A stretch of DNA of 42,935 bases, from IMG/VR virus record IMGVR_UViG_3300036981_000218, positions 1 through 42,935 of that record. One strand, 5' to 3'. The notes beneath the pieces were generated by a model that worked only from the letters and a program-made list of their open reading frames with translations, was not told where the DNA came from and did no database searches. Shown piece after piece: positions 22,118 to 38,986 of this stretch. The translations under genes and the position numbers were made by a program. Each line of letters begins with the position of its first letter. Positions within the stretch are counted from its first letter, which is position 1. Origin of the DNA: a virus.

Positions 22118-24021
22118 AAGCCCCCTGGCATCTTAGCTCTAGGTATATCCCCCCCGGCCAGATCACCTATGCGCGGCTCAATCGGCGCGCCGCTCAGACT
22201 TTGTAACCCCATGATGTCGGAACGCCCCGTAGGCTCGCCCGTATTGCGTGGCGTTGCACCCATGTTCTGCTGTATCTGCGCCATCAGTTGTTGGAGCATG
22301 GCTGGATCCATACCACCCGGCGCTGCACCCTGGGGCGCTGCTGGGGGCGGCGGGCCGCCGCCCCCGCTTGCCGCCGCTTGCGCGCCCTTGATCGCATCCA
22401 GCAAGGCTTGGGGGATGAGTTGCCCGTCAGGTCCGGCGACGAAGCCGGGTGGTATTTCAACATTGGCCGGCGCATAGCCGCGGGCTATCGCCAGCTTCAA
22501 GCCTTCAATGGGCGCAAGCTGAGCGTAAATCGCTTCAACGGCTATGCGCTCTGCCTCGGCGGCAGGCTCCGAGGACAACTTCCATTTTTCGAGCGCCGTT
22601 TCGCGTGACAAAAGTTTCGCGCCCGTCGCTTCAATTGCCATGCGCAGCGCGCCCGCGGTGTCTGATGGCATCGGATCGGCCAGGTGGACGGTAATATCGA
22701 GATCATCCCCAAACTTCTCGACGTTCAAGCGCAGTTTACGTTTCACCATCCGTGACGTGGGCGAATCTTTGGTCACAATAACCAATGGAATCTGTTTGCC
22801 CACCAGTGGGGCAACCTTGTTACGACAAATCTGGACCACGTTTAAGAACGCGCCCGCCAGCATTGCCTCCACGGCCGCCCAGATCGGGAGGATCACTCTA
22901 CGTCCAGCTTGCGACAGCAGCGAGATGGCATAGCCCGCGCTATCGCCCGGCGACTGCCCGAACACGGCAAAGGGGATGGTGCTTTGTTGAAAAACTTGTA
23001 GTAAGGATTGGCCGAGGGTGTAGAAGTCGGGCGGCATCCCGGCGCGCTGGAGGGCTTGCACCTTGTCGGCGCTGCCCAGATACGTGACCTTGCCAGGGCG
23101 CAGGTCGAGATCTTTGCCGTTCTCGCCCGAGAGGGCATCGGAGTAGACCGCCCAGGCGTTGGTCACCGCGGCCAGGCCGGAGGTCGCATTGATCGAATAC
23201 CAGGTGTCGATGACTTGCGCCAAGTCTTCGACGGCGGCCAGGATCGGGCGGAAACGCTTCTCCCCATCGCGAAATGGCGTCGTGCGGGCGTTGCCAAACG
23301 CATACGGCAGACAGCCGTAGCCGTGCGCCAGGACCGGCCCGCCCTTGACCTTCACGGCTTCACCATTGGCGAAGTAGCAGCGGTGTGTCGCCGTCCAGTA
23401 TTCCGTCCATTCGATCAGGTCATCATCCCCCAGCTTCGGATCGAGGACGTTGGGGTAAAGCACCCGCACATCGGCGGCCAACCGCTGCCAGCGTTCGACT
23501 ACGCAGCGCGGTCCAAGCGGGCCATCCGCCACATGCACATGCCGGGGGTCGCGCAACTGGAAGACGACGGGCAGGCCGGCGATGGTCGCCTCATCCGTGG
23601 CCTCCGCCCCCAACTTGATCGAACTGTCCACAAACAGCGTGCGGGCGATGCACTGCGCCCGCTGCGCCGCCAGGAAAGCAGCCTCGCCAATCAAGTTACG
23701 CTGCTGCTTCTTACCGTTCATCGACAACCAGGCCCGCAGCCAGTTCTCTAGCCCCTCGGCGTCACGTTCGTCGTCCAGCCCCTCACCCGCGGCCGGGACG
23801 GAGATGCTAAACTCCATCTGCGCCGCCAGGTCCACGACGAGATCAACCACGCTCGTCGCGTAGGGCATGGTGACGTACTGGATATTGGGATCGGCGGAAG
23901 TCTTCTTGTTGGACATGAAGTAGAGCGCGTCCAGGCGATCATACAGTTGACTGCGCTTGGCGTCACGGTCTACCAGGGCATTGCACTCAGCCCAAATCTT
24001 GGCGGTGGTCGGTTTACTCAT
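22114..24021 (-). CDS. portal protein
   Basis: 635 aa. The ATG at 24021 lies 8 bp inside the terminase end with GAGG nine bases upstream; a GTG at 24036 is less likely. Order and size fit a portal: directly after the large terminase, with an N-terminal helical stem region (SQLYDRLDALYFMSNKK), a central alpha/beta core with clip-like segments (STIPFAVFGQSPGDSAGYAI, RRVILPIWAAVEAMLAGAFL), and a Gly/Pro/Gln-rich C-terminal tail (GGGGPPPPAAPQ, MLQQLMAQIQQ). Portals form the dodecameric DNA gate at one capsid vertex. It has the general look of the portals paired with N4-like capsids. Confidence 0.82.
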   Translation of the reverse strand: MSKPTTAKIWAECNALVDRDAKRSQLYDRLDALYFMSNKKTSADPNIQYVTMPYATSVVDLVVDLAAQMEFSISVPAAGEGLDDERDAEGLENWLRAWLSMNGKKQQRNLIGEAAFLAAQRAQCIARTLFVDSSIKLGAEATDEATIAGLPVVFQLRDPRHVHVADGPLGPRCVVERWQRLAADVRVLYPNVLDPKLGDDDLIEWTEYWTATHRCYFANGEAVKVKGGPVLAHGYGCLPYAFGNARTTPFRDGEKRFRPILAAVEDLAQVIDTWYSINATSGLAAVTNAWAVYSDALSGENGKDLDLRPGKVTYLGSADKVQALQRAGMPPDFYTLGQSLLQVFQQSTIPFAVFGQSPGDSAGYAISLLSQAGRRVILPIWAAVEAMLAGAFLNVVQICRNKVAPLVGKQIPLVIVTKDSPTSRMVKRKLRLNVEKFGDDLDITVHLADPMPSDTAGALRMAIEATGAKLLSRETALEKWKLSSEPAAEAERIAVEAIYAQLAPIEGLKLAIARGYAPANVEIPPGFVAGPDGQLIPQALLDAIKGAQAAASGGGGPPPPAAPQGAAPGGMDPAMLQQLMAQIQQNMGATPRNTGEPTGRSDIMGLQSLSGAPIEPRIGDLAGGDIPRAKMPGGF

Positions 24022-25534
24022 GGTGGGGAACCTCAAAGCTCAAGTCCGGCCCGGCCGGCGCACGGTTGTAGCCAAAGCGCACCCCAGCCGGCGTATTGCC
24101 CGGTAGGATCGTCATCTCCGGCGCGTTACTGGGACCGGCCCCAAAGGCAAACGGCTGCCCCAAGTCCTGCGTCTTGCGGCGCTTGCGCAGCACCGGCCCG
24201 AAGCGGTCATACAGCCAGTAGGCCAAAGCCTTGCAAGCGTCATTGTCGCGGTCGATCGGCAATTCACTGACCGGCCGATTCTCAACGCTCTTGTGGTAGC
24301 GGTACTTCGCCAGCTCAGCCAACAGCCCCTTGCACTTGGGCGCAATAAAAAGCCGGGGCTGCTGCGTCGCGGGATTCAGGAAGAACGTGCGTGTGCGCAG
24401 AATGCCCTCCACGATGCCGACCCGGTTGACCCGCAGATTGAGGCCGGCCGTGTGCCGCCAAATTTCCACCTGCGACTTGGCGCCGGGGTGCTGCTGACCA
24501 GCAATGTCGATGACGCCACCCGTAACGCGCTTCCACCACCAGCGTTCCTTGCAGCGGGCGATGACTTCCTCGGCTACCAACCCCGTCTCATAGACCTCAT
24601 CGAAGCAATAGACCTGATCACCCCACCAGGTAAGGGCCAGCACGGCATAAGCATGGGCATACCCTGGATCAACGGTAATTTCAATCGGCCAGTCGTGCCC
24701 GGCCGCCAAGGCGTCTTTGTGATGGCCGGTAATCATGCCTGGCTCTTTGACATAAGTGCGCCAAGCAATCTCGCGGACATGCTGCTCGTAGCTGAACTCC
24801 CGGAACACCAGCCCCGCCGGCGGACATGGGATCGCCCCGTAACGTTCCAGAAAGAGATCAGCGGGTAACGTGGCGGAAATGGCGAGTAGTTCCGGGTCTT
24901 GGCGTCCACCCGGAAAAATGTGTTTGTTAGCCCAGGTCGGCAATGAGTGGGCGCTACCACCATCAGAATTTTGCGCCCGCCACCGCTGCCATAACGACGG
25001 ATACCAGTCGGCCCCGGCTTCGAGCGTGCCACTAAGCAAAATGAAGCCTCTTTTTTCCGCCACGCGGCCCCGAACTTTTAGAAAAATTTCCCACGTCTGC
25101 TGAGCCGCTTCGACTAGAAGCACGCCATCAGGCGCAGTACCCGCCAGTTTGCGCACGTCATCCGAAGTTTTCGTCACACAGACACCATTGAAGGCCGTCG
25201 TCAAAGAACATGCGCCGATGCGCGGGAAGGACACTTCTTTGACCGCGCCGATCTTCTGTAGCGCACTCAGGATGTACGCAAATTCAGCCCGACACTGGAC
25301 ATAATCAGGGCCAACAATCCAAGCCAGGAAGTCGGGGCGGCCAATGAGCCAGCACAGCAACTCCATCGCACTGACCAGACTCTTGCCCGCGCGTTCACCA
25401 CCAATGACGAGCCGGGAGCGGGCGGTATCCAAGTGGATCGCCCACTGTTCGGGTGTGGGGTCATAGCCGACGCGCTGAAAGATGAACTCCCGTTGCGCTC
25501 TAGTCGGCGGCGCGGGTTGCTCCATAGAGGGCAT
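24014..25534 (-). CDS. terL: terminase large subunit (packaging ATPase/nuclease)
   Basis: 506 aa. ATPase domain: Walker A-like VIGGERAGKS, the acidic motif in PDGVLLVEAAQQ (the usual Asp-Glu is Val-Glu here) and coupling motif LLSGT. Nuclease domain (RNase H-like): ITVDPGYAHAYAVLAL, GVIDIAGQQ and PIDRDNDACKALAYWL supply three Asp sites. The start at 25534 (MPSMEQPAPP) is preferred because the longer frame to 25639 would read through the plus-strand promoter of homing unit 2; MEQPAPP at 25525 is an alternative. The enzyme drives DNA into the procapsid and cuts genome units. Confidence 0.88.
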   Translation of the reverse strand: MPSMEQPAPPTRAQREFIFQRVGYDPTPEQWAIHLDTARSRLVIGGERAGKSLVSAMELLCWLIGRPDFLAWIVGPDYVQCRAEFAYILSALQKIGAVKEVSFPRIGACSLTTAFNGVCVTKTSDDVRKLAGTAPDGVLLVEAAQQTWEIFLKVRGRVAEKRGFILLSGTLEAGADWYPSLWQRWRAQNSDGGSAHSLPTWANKHIFPGGRQDPELLAISATLPADLFLERYGAIPCPPAGLVFREFSYEQHVREIAWRTYVKEPGMITGHHKDALAAGHDWPIEITVDPGYAHAYAVLALTWWGDQVYCFDEVYETGLVAEEVIARCKERWWWKRVTGGVIDIAGQQHPGAKSQVEIWRHTAGLNLRVNRVGIVEGILRTRTFFLNPATQQPRLFIAPKCKGLLAELAKYRYHKSVENRPVSELPIDRDNDACKALAYWLYDRFGPVLRKRRKTQDLGQPFAFGAGPSNAPEMTILPGNTPAGVRFGYNRAPAGPDLSFEVPHHE

Positions 25535-25559
25535 CTTATACCCACTGCCAGGCAGAGTG

Positions 25560-25570
25560 TTGACACCCAC
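25560..25570 (+). repeat. TTGACACCCAC, left direct repeat of homing unit 2
   Basis: Exact copy of the 11-bp word at 26871-26881, same orientation. Between the two copies lie only the RHH/endonuclease pair and its promoter. On the minus strand it is 25 bp ahead of the terminase start. Confidence 0.6.
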
Positions 25571-25578
25571 GCGCGGAC

Positions 25579-25608
25579 TTGACGCGTGACGTACATTTGA
25601 TGTATAAT
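25579..25608 (+). promoter_or_regulatory. sigma-70-like promoter of RHH/endonuclease unit 2
   Basis: -35 TTGACG (25579-25584), 18-bp spacer, -10 TATAAT (25603-25608). The ATG at 25615 begins seven bases after the -10, again predicting a leaderless transcript. The perfect inverted repeat TACAT-TTG-ATGTA (25592-25604) overlaps the spacer and -10, at nearly the same place and with the same 3-nt centre as in unit 1. Confidence 0.75.
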
Positions 25609-25614
25609 AGCAGC

Positions 25615-25764
25615 ATGAAGAAAGAAACTCAGAACACAAGCTTGCGTCTCACGCCAGAGGCCAAGCGGCTGTTACACCTGTTGGCGGCCAAGCTCGGCGT
25701 CTCCATGACTGCCGTTATGGAAATGGCGATCCGCTACTTCGCCCACAAGGAAGGCGTCGAATGA
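25615..25764 (+). CDS. ribbon-helix-helix DNA-binding protein, paralogue of the 21189 gene
   Basis: 49 aa: strand TSLRLTP, helix AKRLLHLLAAKLG, helix SMTAVMEMAIRYFAHKE. It shares LLHLLAAKLG-type and EMAxR-type segments with the 51-aa protein of unit 1. The stop overlaps the endonuclease start (ATGA). The start is the ATG at 25615; an upstream in-frame codon at 25579 lies inside the promoter. Autorepression of the unit is the likely role. Confidence 0.75.
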   Translation: MKKETQNTSLRLTPEAKRLLHLLAAKLGVSMTAVMEMAIRYFAHKEGVE

Positions 25765-34287: not shown

Positions 34288-34503
34288 CTACTCCTCTCTC
34301 TCATCGGTTGGCACTGGCCGCGCTTGGCCGCATTTGACACAGCGCGCTAATGGCTCTGGCATTGCGTAGCCACAGGGGCACGACCACGTATCCGAACGCA
34401 GTGTTAGGCGGCCTTTGCCTTCAACGCAAACCAAGACGTGATGCTCCCGACAATACCAAAAACAGCTTCTTACCTCGTGGCAATTCTGATACATGCAGTT
34501 CAT
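34288..34503 (-). CDS. zinc-ribbon protein directly downstream of the cassette array
   Basis: 71 aa with ten Cys. The C-terminal WSCPCGYAMPEPLARCVKCG is a RanBP2-like zinc-ribbon pattern (W-x-C-x-C...C-x-x-C). The ATG lies 16 nt after the GTTAGAC core of the last attC site, cassette-like spacing, yet no attC follows it. It is close-coupled to the phage gene at 34285, so it is either a resident gene or a cassette that lost its attC. Codons for RLTLR (34395-34409) contain GCCTAACACTGCGT, a 14-bp word also found at the R'' end of the site at 36707-36801. Confidence 0.6.
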   Translation of the reverse strand: MNCMYQNCHEVRSCFWYCREHHVLVCVEGKGRLTLRSDTWSCPCGYAMPEPLARCVKCGQARPVPTDEREE

Positions 34504-34519: not shown

Positions 34520-34613
34520 GTCTAACGGCGAGTGTCACCTGCTCGCCACCGTCCGTGATTCGCGCTGTCCACAACCTCGCCCGGTGGCGAGTCAGGTGGA
34601 CGCAGTGTTAGAC
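34520..34613 (-). repeat. attC-like site A
   Basis: 94 bp. Outer 7-mers GTCTAAC and GTTAGAC pair perfectly. The inner plus-strand arms GTCACCTGCTCGCCACCG and CGGTGGCGAG-T-CAGGTG-G-AC pair with an unpaired T and G in the 3' half, the classic attC extrahelical bases. Nearly identical to site E. The gene at 34592 stops inside it. Confidence 0.88.
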
Positions 34614-34783
34614 GGGACGGAATCACGCCGATTGATTATGATCACGCGTCCATCGTCAAATTTGACAGAGACATAACGACTCTCGCCGTAAATGCCTCGC
34701 CAATCGGTGTCCCACCCGATCAGCGTTCCGTCTCCAAGACCCTCGACGTGACATCTGTCTCCGCGTAGCATCCAATCCTCCAT
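34592..34783 (-). CDS. cassette gene 6: small unknown protein
   Basis: 63 aa from the ATG at 34783, only five bases after the GTTAGGC core of site B. MEDWMLRGDRCHVEGLGDGT and VSVKFDDGRVIIINRRDS suggest a small SH3/KOW-like beta-barrel with W and D/G turns. The last residues (SVPSNTAST) are encoded by the attC site itself. No Shine-Dalgarno site, so it probably depends on read-through or coupling. Function unknown. Confidence 0.6.
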   Translation of the reverse strand: MEDWMLRGDRCHVEGLGDGTLIGWDTDWRGIYGESRYVSVKFDDGRVIIINRRDSVPSNTAST

Positions 34784-34788
34784 GCGCC

Positions 34789-34892
34789 GCCTAACGGTTG
34801 GGATAAGCTGCCCGACCACTGCGGTTCGGTGCGGCGTCTCCCCTGGTCAATCCCGTGACGTTCCACGGGGCAGCTTCATCCCGTTGTTATTC
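34789..34892 (-). repeat. attC-like site B, downstream of the methyltransferase
   Basis: 104 bp. The cassette-start core GTTAGGC (minus strand, 34789-34795) is intact; the far R'' box GAATAAC is degenerate and contains the methyltransferase TAA. Inner arms GGGATAAGCTGCCC / GGGCAGCTT-C-ATCCC pair with one unpaired C. It is the most divergent of the six sites. Confidence 0.75.
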
Positions 34893-36209
34893 GGGAACCG
34901 GCACACCGCTTCCGCTGTCCGCTTCGGCAATGCGTCTCCCGATCCACTCGATGACCGGCACGGCGACGGCGTTCCCAAGCTGGCGATACCGGGCGCTGTC
35001 ACTCTGCCCATCCGTCCAGCCATCGGGGAAGCCCTGCAAGCGTTCGCACTCGGTCGGCGTCAGGCGGCGGATACCGTTTTGGATGATGCCTGAAACTTGA
35101 TTACTGAGTCTGGAATCGCTGGCTAGCAATGTGCTGGCCTGTGCACTCACCGATGCGCCGAATCCTGCGGTGTGAAACGCCACCACCGGCGCACCGTCTC
35201 CCTTACCCGTTTGCCCGTTCTCGGCCTTCAGCGGCGGGGCGATAGTGTCCGGTGCCCCGCGTCCGTTGCGAGCGAAACGTGGCTCAAAGATGAACGTCTC
35301 GGATTCTCCGTCAATGCGTCCGTGGTGATGGTTCAACGTGGAGGCGACTACCCTCAAGTCAGTCGTGCCCACAGTCAGCGCGGTATCCGTCTCGTTGACG
35401 TAAAAGCCACCTTCGGGCCGATCCTTGCGGCGATGCTCACCGCCGTCGTTGTGTTGGATGTTGTAGGCGACGACAAGCATCTCGCTGCCTCCGCCATAAT
35501 CCCCGCCGTTGGCACGCAGCGTGCCAACGGCGGGCTTGTAGCCGCCAAAGCCGCTTATGGCAAAGGTTCCTCGGTCGGTTCCGCTGGGCTTGCCGTGGCT
35601 GCTACCGCCAGCAGCGCCGCCTCTAAGAGTTCCGGCAACGCCTTGCCCCACTTCTCGGCGCGCCGGAGGATGCCCGAACAAGCCCTCGGACTCAAAAAGT
35701 ACCTGGGAGGCGCGTCCATCTCCAAGACTTCCGACAATGAACACACGGCGGCGGAGCTGGGCCACTCCGAAATACTGAGCGTCAAGCACCCGCCAGGCGA
35801 CGCCATACCGCAGTTCGACCAGCCCCCGAAGGATGACAGCGAAGTCGGCTCCGCCGTTGCTGGATAGAAGGCCAGGGACGTTTTCGATGACAACCCACTG
35901 CGGACGCAACTCGTCAAGAACTCGGCGGAACTCAAACCAAAGCCCTGAGCGTTCTCCAGCCAGGCCCGCCCGCTTTCCGGCAACGGATAAGTCCTGACAG
36001 GGGAATCCTCCGCAAACAAGGTCAACTGCTGCAATATTACCGTTTCTGACATCTCGCACATCCTCGATGATCGGCTTGCCAAACTGCCGGGTCAACACGC
36101 CACGCGCCGCGGCGTCAATCTCGCATTGCCAAGCGCACCGCATACCGGCCCGCTCGAATCCGAGGTCGAAACCTCCAATACCTGAGAACAGTGACCCGAA
36201 AACTATCAT
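34887..36209 (-). CDS. dcm-like: cassette gene 5: C5-cytosine DNA methyltransferase
   Basis: 440 aa and complete. Motif I FSGIGGFDLGFERAG, motif IV GGFPCQDLS with the catalytic Cys, motif VI VIENVPG, motif VIII QYFGVAQLRRRVFIVG, and motifs IX/X in RLTPTECERLQGFPDGW and YRQLGNAVAVPVIEW. A long, Gly-rich target-recognition region lies between VIII and IX. The ATG at 36209 is 12 nt after the core of site C. No restriction enzyme is adjacent, so it is an orphan enzyme that could protect phage DNA from host restriction. It is the only large cassette gene. An alternative frame inside it is discussed separately. Confidence 0.9.
   Translation of the reverse strand: MIVFGSLFSGIGGFDLGFERAGMRCAWQCEIDAAARGVLTRQFGKPIIEDVRDVRNGNIAAVDLVCGGFPCQDLSVAGKRAGLAGERSGLWFEFRRVLDELRPQWVVIENVPGLLSSNGGADFAVILRGLVELRYGVAWRVLDAQYFGVAQLRRRVFIVGSLGDGRASQVLFESEGLFGHPPARREVGQGVAGTLRGGAAGGSSHGKPSGTDRGTFAISGFGGYKPAVGTLRANGGDYGGGSEMLVVAYNIQHNDGGEHRRKDRPEGGFYVNETDTALTVGTTDLRVVASTLNHHHGRIDGESETFIFEPRFARNGRGAPDTIAPPLKAENGQTGKGDGAPVVAFHTAGFGASVSAQASTLLASDSRLSNQVSGIIQNGIRRLTPTECERLQGFPDGWTDGQSDSARYRQLGNAVAVPVIEWIGRRIAEADSGSGVPVPE
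35555..36052 (-). CDS. possible overprinted frame inside the methyltransferase gene
   Basis: A second minus-strand frame stays open for 165 codons from the ATG at 36052 (MSETVILQQLTLFAEDSPVR). It contains SKTSLAFYPA, WSNCGMASPGGCLTL, SEWPSSAAVCSLSEVLE and YFLSPRACSGILRRAEK. From memory, proteins with a LSP-x-AC-x-GILRRAE phrase are annotated next to or over phage C5 methyltransferases. They may be real overlapping genes or shadows created by the conserved methyltransferase motifs. It cannot be decided from the sequence. Confidence 0.35.
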   Translation of the reverse strand: MSETVILQQLTLFAEDSPVRTYPLPESGRAWLENAQGFGLSSAEFLTSCVRSGLSSKTSLAFYPATAEPTSLSSFGGWSNCGMASPGGCLTLSISEWPSSAAVCSLSEVLEMDAPPRYFLSPRACSGILRRAEKWGKALPELLEAALLAVAATASPAEPTEEPLP

Positions 36210-36221
36210 GCTTAGGTTCCC

Positions 36222-36330
36222 GTCTAACGGTCAGGCGTCAGCCGCAGCGGGTTGACGCGCAGTGGTTTGATCGGCGGCGATAGGTTGTGACGCGCCAGCT
36301 TCCGCTGTCGGCTGGACGCCCTTGTTAGAC
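36222..36330 (-). repeat. attC-like site C
   Basis: 109 bp. Outer boxes GTCTAAC/GTTAGAC are perfect. Plus-strand inner arms GGCGTC-AGCCG-CAGCGG and CCGCTG-T-CGGCT-G-GACGCC pair over 17 bp with extrahelical T and G in the 3' half: the most canonical attC in the array. Confidence 0.9.
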
Positions 36331-36422
36331 GGACGGAACCGGCACGCACGTTGATGCGAGCCAGCCTTCCGCGCCGTCGTCAACCGGTGACACCACGGGC
36401 ATTGTACATAGGTCGTTGCCAT
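36231..36422 (-). CDS. cassette gene 4: small zinc-finger-like protein
   Basis: 63 aa from the ATG at 36422 (an adjacent ATG lies at 36425). The first 35 residues look real: TTYVQCPWCHRLTTARKAGS followed by HQRAC, a CxxC...H...C zinc-finger pattern. The remainder (GVQPTAEAGASQP and on) is read from attC site C, in which the frame stops. Starts 15 nt after the core of site D. Function unknown. Confidence 0.55.
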   Translation of the reverse strand: MATTYVQCPWCHRLTTARKAGSHQRACRFRPSNKGVQPTAEAGASQPIAADQTTARQPAAADA

Positions 36423-36437
36423 CATACCCTCTCGTCC

Positions 36438-36534
36438 GTCTAACGGTTGGGTTCACCTGCGGCTGCGCCTCTGGCCATGGTGTCGTCGGCGTGCTCCACC
36501 GGCGCAGCCGTCACGGTGGAACCCGTGGTTAGGC
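36438..36534 (-). repeat. attC-like site D
   Basis: 97 bp. Boxes GTCTAAC and GTTAGGC. Inner arms GGGTTCACC-TG-CGGCTGCGCC and GGCGCAGCCG-TCAC-GGTG-G-AACCC pair with unpaired T, C and G in the plus-strand 3' half. The stop (TAG) of the gene at 36440 lies in its core box. Confidence 0.82.
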
Positions 36535-36682
36535 GGGTTTGATACAACACGTTCTCTAACTCTCGTGCCGCTTTCCTCAGACCCTCCGCCATGCCCTGAT
36601 TGTAGGTCTGGCAGTAGTGTCCGCTCGCCTCCTCCCGCCATCTCGATAGCATGGATTCGAGTTCCGTCTTTGTTGGTCGCAT
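36440..36682 (-). CDS. cassette gene 3: small helical protein
   Basis: 80 aa. The ATG at 36682 has GAGGGAG upstream and lies 24 nt after the core of site E. The first 50 residues form likely helices (TKTELESMLSRWREEASGHY, GMAEGLRKAARELENVLYQ). The C-terminal 25 residues (TTGSTVTAAPVEHADDT and on) are attC-encoded. No family recognised. Confidence 0.6.
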   Translation of the reverse strand: MRPTKTELESMLSRWREEASGHYCQTYNQGMAEGLRKAARELENVLYQTRLTTGSTVTAAPVEHADDTMARGAAAGEPNR

Positions 36683-36706
36683 CGTGATCTCCCTCGGCGG
36701 TAGTCC

Positions 36707-36801
36707 ACCTAACGGTCATCGTCACCTGCTCGCCACCGTCCGTGATTCGCGCTGTCCACGACCTCGCCACGGTGGCGAGTCAGGTGGACGCAGTGTTAGG
36801 C
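36707..36801 (-). repeat. attC-like site E
   Basis: 95 bp, nearly identical to site A including the loop. Boxes ACCTAAC and GTTAGGC. Arms GTCACCTGCTCGCCACCGT / ACGGTGGCGAG-T-CAGGTG-G-AC with unpaired T and G. Such likeness between sites is typical of sedentary chromosomal integrons. Confidence 0.88.
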
Positions 36802-36937
36802 GGCTTTGTAACTTGCCCAACAACCGCTGCGCGGCACCGTCAATAATATCATCCGGCGCTGCATACAAAGCGCCTTCGAGAAAACTCATCAGTTCCAAGC
36901 CGTCATCTTCGGTGAGTGAAATTCTGATGCTTGACAT
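36722..36937 (-). CDS. cassette gene 2: small unknown protein
   Basis: 71 aa. ATG at 36937, six bases after the core of site F, so no room for a full Shine-Dalgarno site. The real-looking part is MSSIRISLTEDDGLELMSFL followed by a helical segment ending LLGKLQS; the rest (RLTLRPPDSPPWRGRG and on) is attC-encoded. Unrecognised. Confidence 0.55.
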   Translation of the reverse strand: MSSIRISLTEDDGLELMSFLEGALYAAPDDIIDGAAQRLLGKLQSRLTLRPPDSPPWRGRGQRESRTVASR

Positions 36938-36943
36938 GAAGCC

Positions 36944-37034
36944 GCCTAACGATGATCGTCACCTGCCGGGCGTGTGTCCGGCGTGACTTCCGCATCCGGG
37001 CACGTAGCCCGGTCAGGTGGACGTGGTGTTAGGC
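36944..37034 (-). repeat. attC-like site F
   Basis: 91 bp. Boxes GCCTAAC/GTTAGGC pair perfectly. Arms GTCACCTGCCGGGC and GCCCGG-T-CAGGTG-G-AC pair with the usual unpaired T and G. It shares the CACCTG/CAGGTG block with A and E but has a different inner stem and loop. Confidence 0.87.
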
Positions 37035-37152
37035 GGCCCGTACCAAATGCCGACCAGAACCACCCGATACGTTCCTGGTCACTGGGGTTTTTGTCCAGCG
37101 GCTCCCCCGCCGCACCACGTCGTACGCCGTGTTGAAACTCCGTGATTGCCAT
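36946..37152 (-). CDS. cassette gene 1: small unknown protein
   Basis: 68 aa, first gene of the array in transcription order, 14 nt after the lone core at 37167. MAITEFQHGVRRGAAGEPLD and DQERIGWFWSAFGTGR are gene-like; the last 27 residues come from attC site F. TGGGGGTG upstream may serve as a weak ribosome site. Unrecognised. Confidence 0.5.
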   Translation of the reverse strand: MAITEFQHGVRRGAAGEPLDKNPSDQERIGWFWSAFGTGRLTPRPPDRATCPDAEVTPDTRPAGDDHR

Positions 37153-37166
37153 AGGTTCACCCCCAA

Positions 37167-37173
37167 GCCTAAC
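37167..37173 (-). other. lone GTTAGGC core: array boundary, attI-like or secondary site
   Basis: On the minus strand ACAAG-TTAGGC precedes cassette 1. No pairing R'' box or inner stem lies within 150 bp to the right, unlike all the other cores. An imperfect inverted repeat (TAGACAGAC ... GTCTATC, 37181-37202) is nearby. It is where the first cassette would have joined the phage genome. Confidence 0.5.
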
Positions 37174-37209
37174 TTGTATATAGACAGACAGAATCCGTCT
37201 ATCTGCGTA

Positions 37210-37422
37210 TCAGCGCGGCAATGCGGAGATGCTTACAAAATCCCCCAGTCGTGTTTCTCTACATCTTGCACATTTTGTCTCCACAGACAGCAATGAAATC
37301 GTCAGGCCAGATATGATGTATTGGCACGCTGGACATTGCCACCAAATTGCAGTCTCTTGGCTGATGCTCTTTGCAGTCGCTGATCCGGCATACACGCCCG
37401 GCATGATCTCGTTCCATCGCAT
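37210..37422 (-). CDS. small zinc-ribbon-like protein
   Basis: 70 aa. WQCPACQYIISGLTI and KCARCRETRLGDF give two CxxC pairs 20 residues apart, a zinc-ribbon pattern. It starts 12 bp after the DnaC-like stop with GAGAGGAA ahead. It is the last early gene before the cassette array. Confidence 0.6.
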   Translation of the reverse strand: MRWNEIMPGVYAGSATAKSISQETAIWWQCPACQYIISGLTISLLSVETKCARCRETRLGDFVSISALPR

Positions 37423-37434
37423 AGCAGGTTCCTC

Positions 37435-38241
37435 TCATTCGCGCTCTAAGCGTCTCACATCGACCCCATCAAGGAGATAGACGTGGTTTTTTCTGTCCTG
37501 CATCCGACTCGCCACGTAGCCGGGCAGGTCGGTCAAGGTTGCATTGGCTGCGAAGGCTGTCATTAGATCGGCCGCGCGTTCGTAGCGCCAGTTGGTCAAC
37601 TGGACGAACTTCTCCATTGCCCATTCGCTGGTTTGCCAACGGTCAAACTCATCCAGACACAACAATCGACAGTTTTTCAGCAAGTCGAATCGCACATCGT
37701 ATGTCATAACCTCTACGTTGGTGGGGTTGTAACCCGCCCGCAGGTAATCCATCACATCGGCCGTGGTCGTGTAGATAGCGACCTCCCCCAACGCGCGGAC
37801 CGCATTGACCAGACACGCCAGCAGCCGGGTCTTGCCCACCCCGTAAACAGTAGGTGAAAGCAGCGTGTAAAATCTGGCGGGGTTCGTGCTCAACAGTTTT
37901 GCCGTGTCATACGCATCGGCGTTTACACTGGTGCGCTTGGTATTCCCGAACGTCCAGCCCTGCGCCTCCCGACTGAGGCCGCTTTGTTTCAGCAGGTGAT
38001 TAGAAAGCGCGTCCTTGCCGCACTGGTCGCAGCGCACCGCCTTTCCGAAGCGGGGATCACCAAGCGGCACGTCATATTGCAGCCAGCCTATACCCTTACA
38101 GCGCGGGCAATCAGGTGGCGGCGTTGAACTCGGCTTGTGCAACAGCGATACTGGCGTCTGTTTGCTTTTCTTGGTACGTCCGATCGCGTAATCCGGTAGT
38201 TCCTTGGAGACCAAATTTCCGATTGTTTTCGGCTCTGCCAT
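37435..38241 (-). CDS. dnaC-like: DnaC/IstB-like helicase loader ATPase
   Basis: 268 aa from the ATG at 38241 (GAGAGGAAG upstream); the frame continues to 38328 inside the upstream gene. An N-terminal zinc motif (CPRCKGIGWL ... CDQCGK) precedes the AAA+ core: Walker A-like YGVGKTRLLACLV, Walker B CRLLCLDEFDR, and sensor-type MTAFAANATLTDLPGYVASR with a C-terminal Arg. Such proteins load the replicative helicase at the phage origin. Its first 43 codons overlap the end of the putative replication initiator in another frame. Confidence 0.82.
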   Translation of the reverse strand: MAEPKTIGNLVSKELPDYAIGRTKKSKQTPVSLLHKPSSTPPPDCPRCKGIGWLQYDVPLGDPRFGKAVRCDQCGKDALSNHLLKQSGLSREAQGWTFGNTKRTSVNADAYDTAKLLSTNPARFYTLLSPTVYGVGKTRLLACLVNAVRALGEVAIYTTTADVMDYLRAGYNPTNVEVMTYDVRFDLLKNCRLLCLDEFDRWQTSEWAMEKFVQLTNWRYERAADLMTAFAANATLTDLPGYVASRMQDRKNHVYLLDGVDVRRLERE

Positions 38242-38986
38242 TGCCGTTCTTCCTCTCACCAGGTACCCGACCCTCCTGGTAGTATTCTGTGACCATGACT
38301 TGATACGAGGTGTTAGACCACTGCGCACAGTAGCCAGCTACTACACGACTCCACAGATCCAATGCCTCGGGGGTGTCTGCGACCCGCTCGCAAATCCATG
38401 CGCTCGCATGGTCTATCTTGCTTTCTCCGGTTCCCAGGCGCCCCGTGGGCAGTTTGCCGCCTGCCCGCAGGAAAACCGCGACCTGGGAGGGGTACTTGAT
38501 GGCAACGCTTTTATCCGCTGGCTGCCGGCTTGGTGGTTTGGGTTTGAGGGGTTGGTCGGTCCCGGCGCCGTCCGCTGGACTTCCCATGGACGGCGCCGGG
38601 ATGTCCTCTTGCTTATCCGCCTGGCGGGTGGCTCGTTTGCGTTCTGCGTCAGCGTGCCGTTTCTCGATCAGCTTACCCGCGTACTCATACCAATCGTGTA
38701 TGAGTAGCGTAGTGCCTGCATATTCCAGAAACCCAGGTTTGTCCCCAACCTTCGCTTCCTCGGTCAATGCCCAAAGGAATGTTTCGGGATCGCCCTCCCA
38801 CTCTGCCGCATTGGCGATGTCAGCAGCGGAGAACGGTGTGAGTACGCCATCTTTAGCATAGTCCAACGCCCACCACCACAAACAATGCAAGTGTCCGATG
38901 AGAGCTACCTTGGAGCAGCCCAGCGCGCGCGCGGCTTTGAGTGCTTTCGGATGCTGGCGCAACGACTGGTGCGATTCGATCCACAT
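38111..38986 (-). CDS. DnaD-like replication initiation/organiser protein
   Basis: 291 aa. The N-terminal domain (MWIESHQSLRQHPKALKAAR, LIGHLHCLWWWALDYAKDG, FSAADIANAAEWEGDPETFL, LLIHDWYEYAGKLIEKRHAD) matches the winged-helix N-terminus of phage replication organisers. A basic Lys/Pro-rich linker and a helical C-terminal domain follow. The gene order initiator then DnaC-like loader is typical. The 3' 131 bp also encode the loader's N-terminus. Confidence 0.72.
   Translation of the reverse strand: MWIESHQSLRQHPKALKAARALGCSKVALIGHLHCLWWWALDYAKDGVLTPFSAADIANAAEWEGDPETFLWALTEEAKVGDKPGFLEYAGTTLLIHDWYEYAGKLIEKRHADAERKRATRQADKQEDIPAPSMGSPADGAGTDQPLKPKPPSRQPADKSVAIKYPSQVAVFLRAGGKLPTGRLGTGESKIDHASAWICERVADTPEALDLWSRVVAGYCAQWSNTSYQVMVTEYYQEGRVPGERKNGNGRAENNRKFGLQGTTGLRDRTYQEKQTDASIAVAQAEFNAAT

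Follow-up and report, generated by a model that had tools for sequence, protein, structure and literature searches.

An integron cassette array with an attI-like site in a probable Anaerolineae phage

Integron cassettes are thought to spread chiefly via plasmids and transposons. The locus described here, a run of attC-type sites and genes within a virus record, raises the question of whether a phage could take part in cassette exchange, and whose integrase it would use. The window, by which we mean the whole stretch of DNA analyzed, is an IMG/VR virus record, linear and 42,935 bp long, that may be a fragment. An earlier note, made from the letters alone, had placed a cassette array inside a phage genome, and the gene content bears this out: among the encoded products are a terminase large subunit, a portal-like protein, a helicase loader, a replication initiator and a 2869-aa protein with a phrog_21 domain, so that the record contains genes of the kind used to recognize tailed phages (terminase, portal or head genes). 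Two of these genes serve as landmarks.

24014..25639, minus strand: terminase large subunit, phage marker (phrog_2, E 5e-17; 78% identical to that of L057)
37435..38328, minus strand: DnaC-like helicase loader, upstream of the array and not a cassette (phrog_50, E 4e-21)

The relative reached through the terminase, L057, shares a portal protein at 88% identity and ends before the array, with no attC. Searches for relatives through the helicase loader, by blastn against phages and through a 459-aa protein returned almost nothing, and no relative of the window phage carrying other cassettes was found. Neither the integron integrase model TIGR02249 (cut-off 265 bits) nor Phage_integrase (PF00589) had a match in the 42.9-kb record, and the intI of a complete integron is therefore missing from the record, possibly a fragment. 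A search of the record that was non-exhaustive for serine integrases and repressors likewise found no integrase or repressor, and the phage may be of the lytic type suggested in the earlier note, although the record may be a fragment. The ∼5.7 kb upstream of the array encodes no tyrosine recombinase; its genes are those for the helicase loader and the replication initiator and others of no assigned function. Overlapping G+C-rich tandem repeats of 18-78 bp occupy positions 1-502, the left end of the record.

Six attC sites, scored with a covariance model termed R1, make up the array.

34520..34613, minus strand: attC S1, last site of the array (46.2 bits, E 1.4e-9)
34789..34892, minus strand: attC S2, with a degenerate R'' box (25.4 bits, E 2.1e-4)
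36222..36330, minus strand: attC S3 (45.3 bits, E 2.3e-9)
36438..36534, minus strand: attC S4 (45.7 bits, E 1.8e-9)
36707..36801, minus strand: attC S5, to which S1 is 93% identical (47.8 bits, E 5.5e-10)
36944..37034, minus strand: attC S6 (50.3 bits, E 1.3e-10)

R1 was built from 11 aligned attCs of other organisms, none from the window: 10 came from Anaerolineae-type (Chloroflexota) MAG contigs carrying intI, and one was a class 1 attC. Run on the window with filters off, it ranked the six array sites first, with S1 and S3-S6 at E values of 1e-10 to 2e-9 and S2 at 2e-4, and the next best match in 43 kb had an E value of 0.18. All six matches fell on the plus strand; on the minus strand none of these sites scored above 13 bits, so that plus is the bottom strand for S1-S6. 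In single-strand folds of the plus strand, S1 and S3-S6 have the bulged T and G of attCs and S2 does not. The covariance and folding checks proposed in the earlier note thus agree with what it had described: six attC-type sites in one orientation, five of them with an unpaired T and G. These five possess the full set of attC features (R'' and R' boxes, paired L arms, and a bulged T and G on the bottom strand), while S2 is without a proper R'' box and a bulged T and may be dead. A strict finder (RYYYAAC...GTTRRRY with paired arms) applied to the whole 42,935-bp window returned five matches, all within the array, versus a mean of 0.48 in dinucleotide-shuffled windows. Outside the window, R1 also recovered sites of class 1 in P1 phage MH445380, as well as two in phage TJE1, whose attCs have been tested in the literature. 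Rfam and tRNA scans gave no matches. With six sites in 2.5 kb and no integrase match in the record, the array qualifies as a CALIN (two or more attCs close together, lacking an integron integrase).

The genes between and beyond the sites are arranged as cassettes.

36946..37152, minus strand: cassette 1 ORF, 68 aa, no assigned function, stop inside S6
36722..36937, minus strand: cassette 2 ORF, 71 aa, no assigned function, start 6 nt from S6 and stop in S5
36440..36682, minus strand: cassette 3 ORF, 80 aa, no assigned function
36231..36425, minus strand: cassette 4 ORF, 64 aa, CxxC-type small protein
34887..36209, minus strand: cassette 5, C5-cytosine DNA methyltransferase, 440 aa (PF00145, E 6e-71; TIGR00675, 229 bits)
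34592..34783, minus strand: cassette 6 ORF, 63 aa, no assigned function
34288..34503, minus strand: ORF after the last attC, 71 aa, with no further attC beyond it by R1

The distance from site to gene start is 6 nt at S6, 24 at S5, 12 at S4, 12 at S3, 5 at S2 and 16 at S1, and six genes end within the next attC. The earlier description, a small gene 5-24 nt after each site with its stop in the next, was accurate in the spacing and the six stops; it did not fit cassette 5, which encodes 440 aa, or the last gene (34288-34503), which ends without a site, and it drew the array too short, since the unit reaches about 37227 once an attI-like site is taken in. The N-terminus of the cassette 4 ORF is 77% identical over 26 aa to a cassette ORF of another phage contig, G001. 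We looked for functions of the small cassette ORFs and found no plausible one. The closest relative found for the cassette 5 methyltransferase is a cassette methyltransferase of Virus Rctr41k (47% identity in amino acids, 70% in nucleotides).

Upstream of cassette 1 lies a site with the layout of an integron attachment site, with a G|TT insertion point at the head of the array and an L-type box upstream of it.

37167..37227, minus strand: attI-like site of ∼60 bp, comprising the palindrome TAGACGGATTCTGTCTGTCTA, 7 nt, and then a lone R box G|TTAGGC (37167-37173)

The same module is present in phage contig G001 (locus L006; blastn 81.7% over 60 bp, E 5e-8), where alignment shows different flanking genes. 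A bacterial counterpart, TAGGCGGAGTCTTTCCGTCTAAGAACAAGTT, lies 5' of intI in the Chloroflexota genome G003. When this intI-adjacent attI was compared with every position of the window in both strands, its best position was the attI-like site (24/31; next 19). The intI-adjacent attI of G071 has the same layout, but placed the window site only second in rank (20/34), and we rejected it as a pointer on its own. A PWM of bacterial attIs scored 39.1 bits at 37167-37227 and 18.6 bits at the next position; we treat this result as supporting only, because most of the bacterial attIs were gathered with a pattern that was built from three sequences and contains phage letters. That pattern matched in five of the 396 genomes of the class and its reverse in none. 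In three Anaerolineae-class genomes (G199, G037 and G003), attI-related sites are followed by attCs that R1 finds in the correct orientation. The phage site has one palindrome versus two to five in most host attIs, and its type groups with the IntI of G003 and G071, not with that of Rctr41k. The end of a gene for a small CxxC protein (37210-37422) overlaps the attI-like site, and an ORF similar to this gene lies between two attCs in L090.

The attC core pattern points to the same bacteria. It matched five genome contigs, four of them Chloroflexota MAGs with attCs confirmed by R1, and three of these four have an IntI above the cut-off (496 bits in G003). The fifth match, from a Muribaculaceae MAG (L010), does not fold as an attC and was taken as chance. 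From these similarities the host of the window phage was probably an Anaerolineae (Chloroflexota) bacterium. Genome G199 has six attI-like sites on different contigs (L048-L053), most with correctly oriented attCs downstream; no full IntI was found in it.

Other phages carry arrays of this kind, four of them with head or terminase genes. G001 encodes a terminase, a portal protein, a head protease and a major head protein and has five attCs of its own, with no IntI in 31 kb; two tyrosine recombinases of L006 were rejected as IntI at 42 and 83 bits. The first cassette of G001 (L006:754-2040) holds three ORFs opposing the array direction, with matching TTAGAC boxes at its ends and promoter-like TTGACA/TATAAT sequences immediately upstream of the ORFs. 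G002 is another phage, with four attCs and no integrase.

Two related phages carry an integron-type integrase gene. Virus Rctr41k (GenBank KX853513) has terminase, capsid and tail genes and six attCs around its methyltransferase gene. Its protein Rctr41k_11 (L062:7696-8694), deposited as integrase-like and xerD, scores 383 bits against TIGR02249, and in alignment with known IntI the match runs along its length. In Rctr41k, the start of each of the six cassettes is complementary to its own R'' box (permutation p 0.0014), whereas the control comparison of the two ends of the same attC gave no match in six. L064, which has phage head genes, is related to Rctr41k (IntI 72%, regulator 93%, terminase 55%), and its cassette starts match in three of three cases. 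It holds the same ATPase-regulator cassette as Rctr41k, but with two extra cassettes between this cassette and intI, each with matching boxes and joined at G|TT exactly at attI, as would be expected if IntI had inserted them at attI in a phage. At a conserved Trp, the L064 IntI gene (L064:6001-6996) reads TAG in frame (GWF*VF), which could reflect a pseudogene, recoding or a sequence error, and this copy of IntI may therefore be dead. In IMG/VR, at least 529 stretches code for IntI-like proteins; among the best 80 of these (L064-L143), many have attCs nearby and some have C5-methyltransferase genes (L077, L128). We do not claim these contigs as phages, a phrog_2 terminase having been detected in 4 of the 31 tested, and L079, L080 and L082 group with IntI1.

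The window contains an integron array with no integrase gene in the record, an attI-like site followed by a six-attC CALIN, in a phage. We consider it likely that this is an Anaerolineae phage that exchanges cassettes by means of a host IntI. Cassettes would be drawn from the bacterial cassette pool, with return to the pool possible. An integron integrase would cut the folded bottom strand of an attC at G|TTRRRY and the cut site would be joined to the phage attI-like site at 37167-37173; new cassettes would therefore be placed in front of cassette 1 in the minus-strand operon, from which they could be transcribed. Because the record encodes no IntI, the enzyme would most likely be supplied in trans by the infected host, and the system may be active today. 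The clearest benefit would come from the C5-methyltransferase, which could shield phage DNA from restriction. The suggestion in the earlier note that a phage could sample host cassette pools gains strength from the attI-like site and the related phages. Against our reading stand the degenerate S2, the lack of a relative with other cassettes among those found, the single palindrome of the attI-like site, its second rank with the attI of G071, the phage letters in the pattern behind most of the bacterial attIs, and cassette starts of which three in six match their boxes; an IntI gene may also lie on a missing part of the genome.

A different origin of the array would be the capture of part of an integron from the host chromosome, attI and cassettes together, by homologous or illegitimate recombination, followed by inheritance without exchange. 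Such capture has been proposed for several phages (PMC9892861), and it would be consistent with the degenerate S2 and with the cassette starts of the window, of which three of six are complementary to their own R'' box (p 0.40), a test that is uninformative here because the boxes are nearly uniform. We regard this origin as rather unlikely, as two unrelated phages have a common attI but different cassettes and flanks, a host fragment would be expected to retain either all of the palindromes or a part of intI, and Rctr41k and L064 illustrate insertion at attI. It is also unlikely that a complete phage integron was split by assembly, with an IntI gene of the phage itself lying on a stretch of the genome that the contig lacks. 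The linear record may be incomplete, and Rctr41k and L064 do carry IntI beside the array; in both, however, intI adjoins attI, whereas the ∼5.7 kb upstream of the array lacks a tyrosine recombinase, G001 has the same attI type and also no IntI, and this attI type belongs with the IntI group of G003 and G071.

Could the arrangement be an artifact of assembly or of chance? The sequence is of metagenomic origin, and a bacterial CALIN contig might have been joined to a phage contig. This is very improbable because G001, an independent phage contig, has the same attI module and Rctr41k has the same layout; moreover, arrays lie inside the four other phages noted above, the GC content of the array (0.59-0.63) is in line with that of its flanks and gene direction is continuous across it. 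As for chance, strongly paired sites between co-oriented genes might be ordinary phage repeats, such as terminator-like or regulatory hairpins that resemble attCs. It is hardly credible that such hairpins would score as they do against a model of bacterial attCs, with strand asymmetry, conserved bulged T and G and an attI-like site at the expected end.

A phage docking site without an integrase suggests that a virus can exploit the gene-capture machine of its host, and Rctr41k and L064 add cassette gain at attI in related phages. It is now testable whether phages both draw on the bacterial cassette pool and supply it, and whether they trade methyltransferases that evade defence. More tentatively, Anaerolineae phages may form a standing viral branch of integrons, some with intI-attI-attC and others with attI-attC and a host IntI, trading cassettes, including anti-restriction ones, with host chromosomal integrons at defined sites; if so, phages would be vehicles and users of the cassette pool.

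The view that an array inside a phage is unusual needs revising, since CALINs in the virulent phages TJE1, P12002L and PH101, with methyltransferase cassettes among the cargo and phage attCs active with IntI1 in recombination assays, were published in 2023 (Qi et al. 2023, PMC9892861). The same paper describes complete integrons in temperate phages or prophages (V. anguillarum p16, P1 L-II and Shewanella M16-3). Its main text makes no mention of Chloroflexi or Rctr41k, although the supplement may list Rctr41k, and the main text of the 2016 paper depositing Rctr41k does not mention integrons. What seems to be new is an attI-like site without intI in a Chloroflexota phage, together with related phages that have an unrecognized IntI and, between two of them, cassette gain at attI.

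The window resembles TJE1, P12002L and PH101 in its attC-bounded cassettes without an integrase and its methyltransferase cassette, and differs from them in that its six attCs are of the Chloroflexota type, all point the same way and follow an attI-like site. With p16, P1 L-II and M16-3 it shares attI and attC arrays in a phage context, M16-3 having a CALIN with its own attI; unlike the window, these carry intI and have links to chromosomal integrons of the host or to class 1 integrons. Rctr41k and L064 similarly have an attC array near a replication-type ATPase gene, and Rctr41k has the related C5-methyltransferase cassette, the only gene that it shares with the window, but both have an integron-type IntI and another attC and attI type. 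The Anaerolineae MAG integrons of G003 and G071 share with the window the attI architecture (a palindrome ending CYGYCTA, 7 nt, GTT) and the attC type, yet they are bacterial, with IntI and two to five attI palindromes, where the phage has one palindrome and no IntI.
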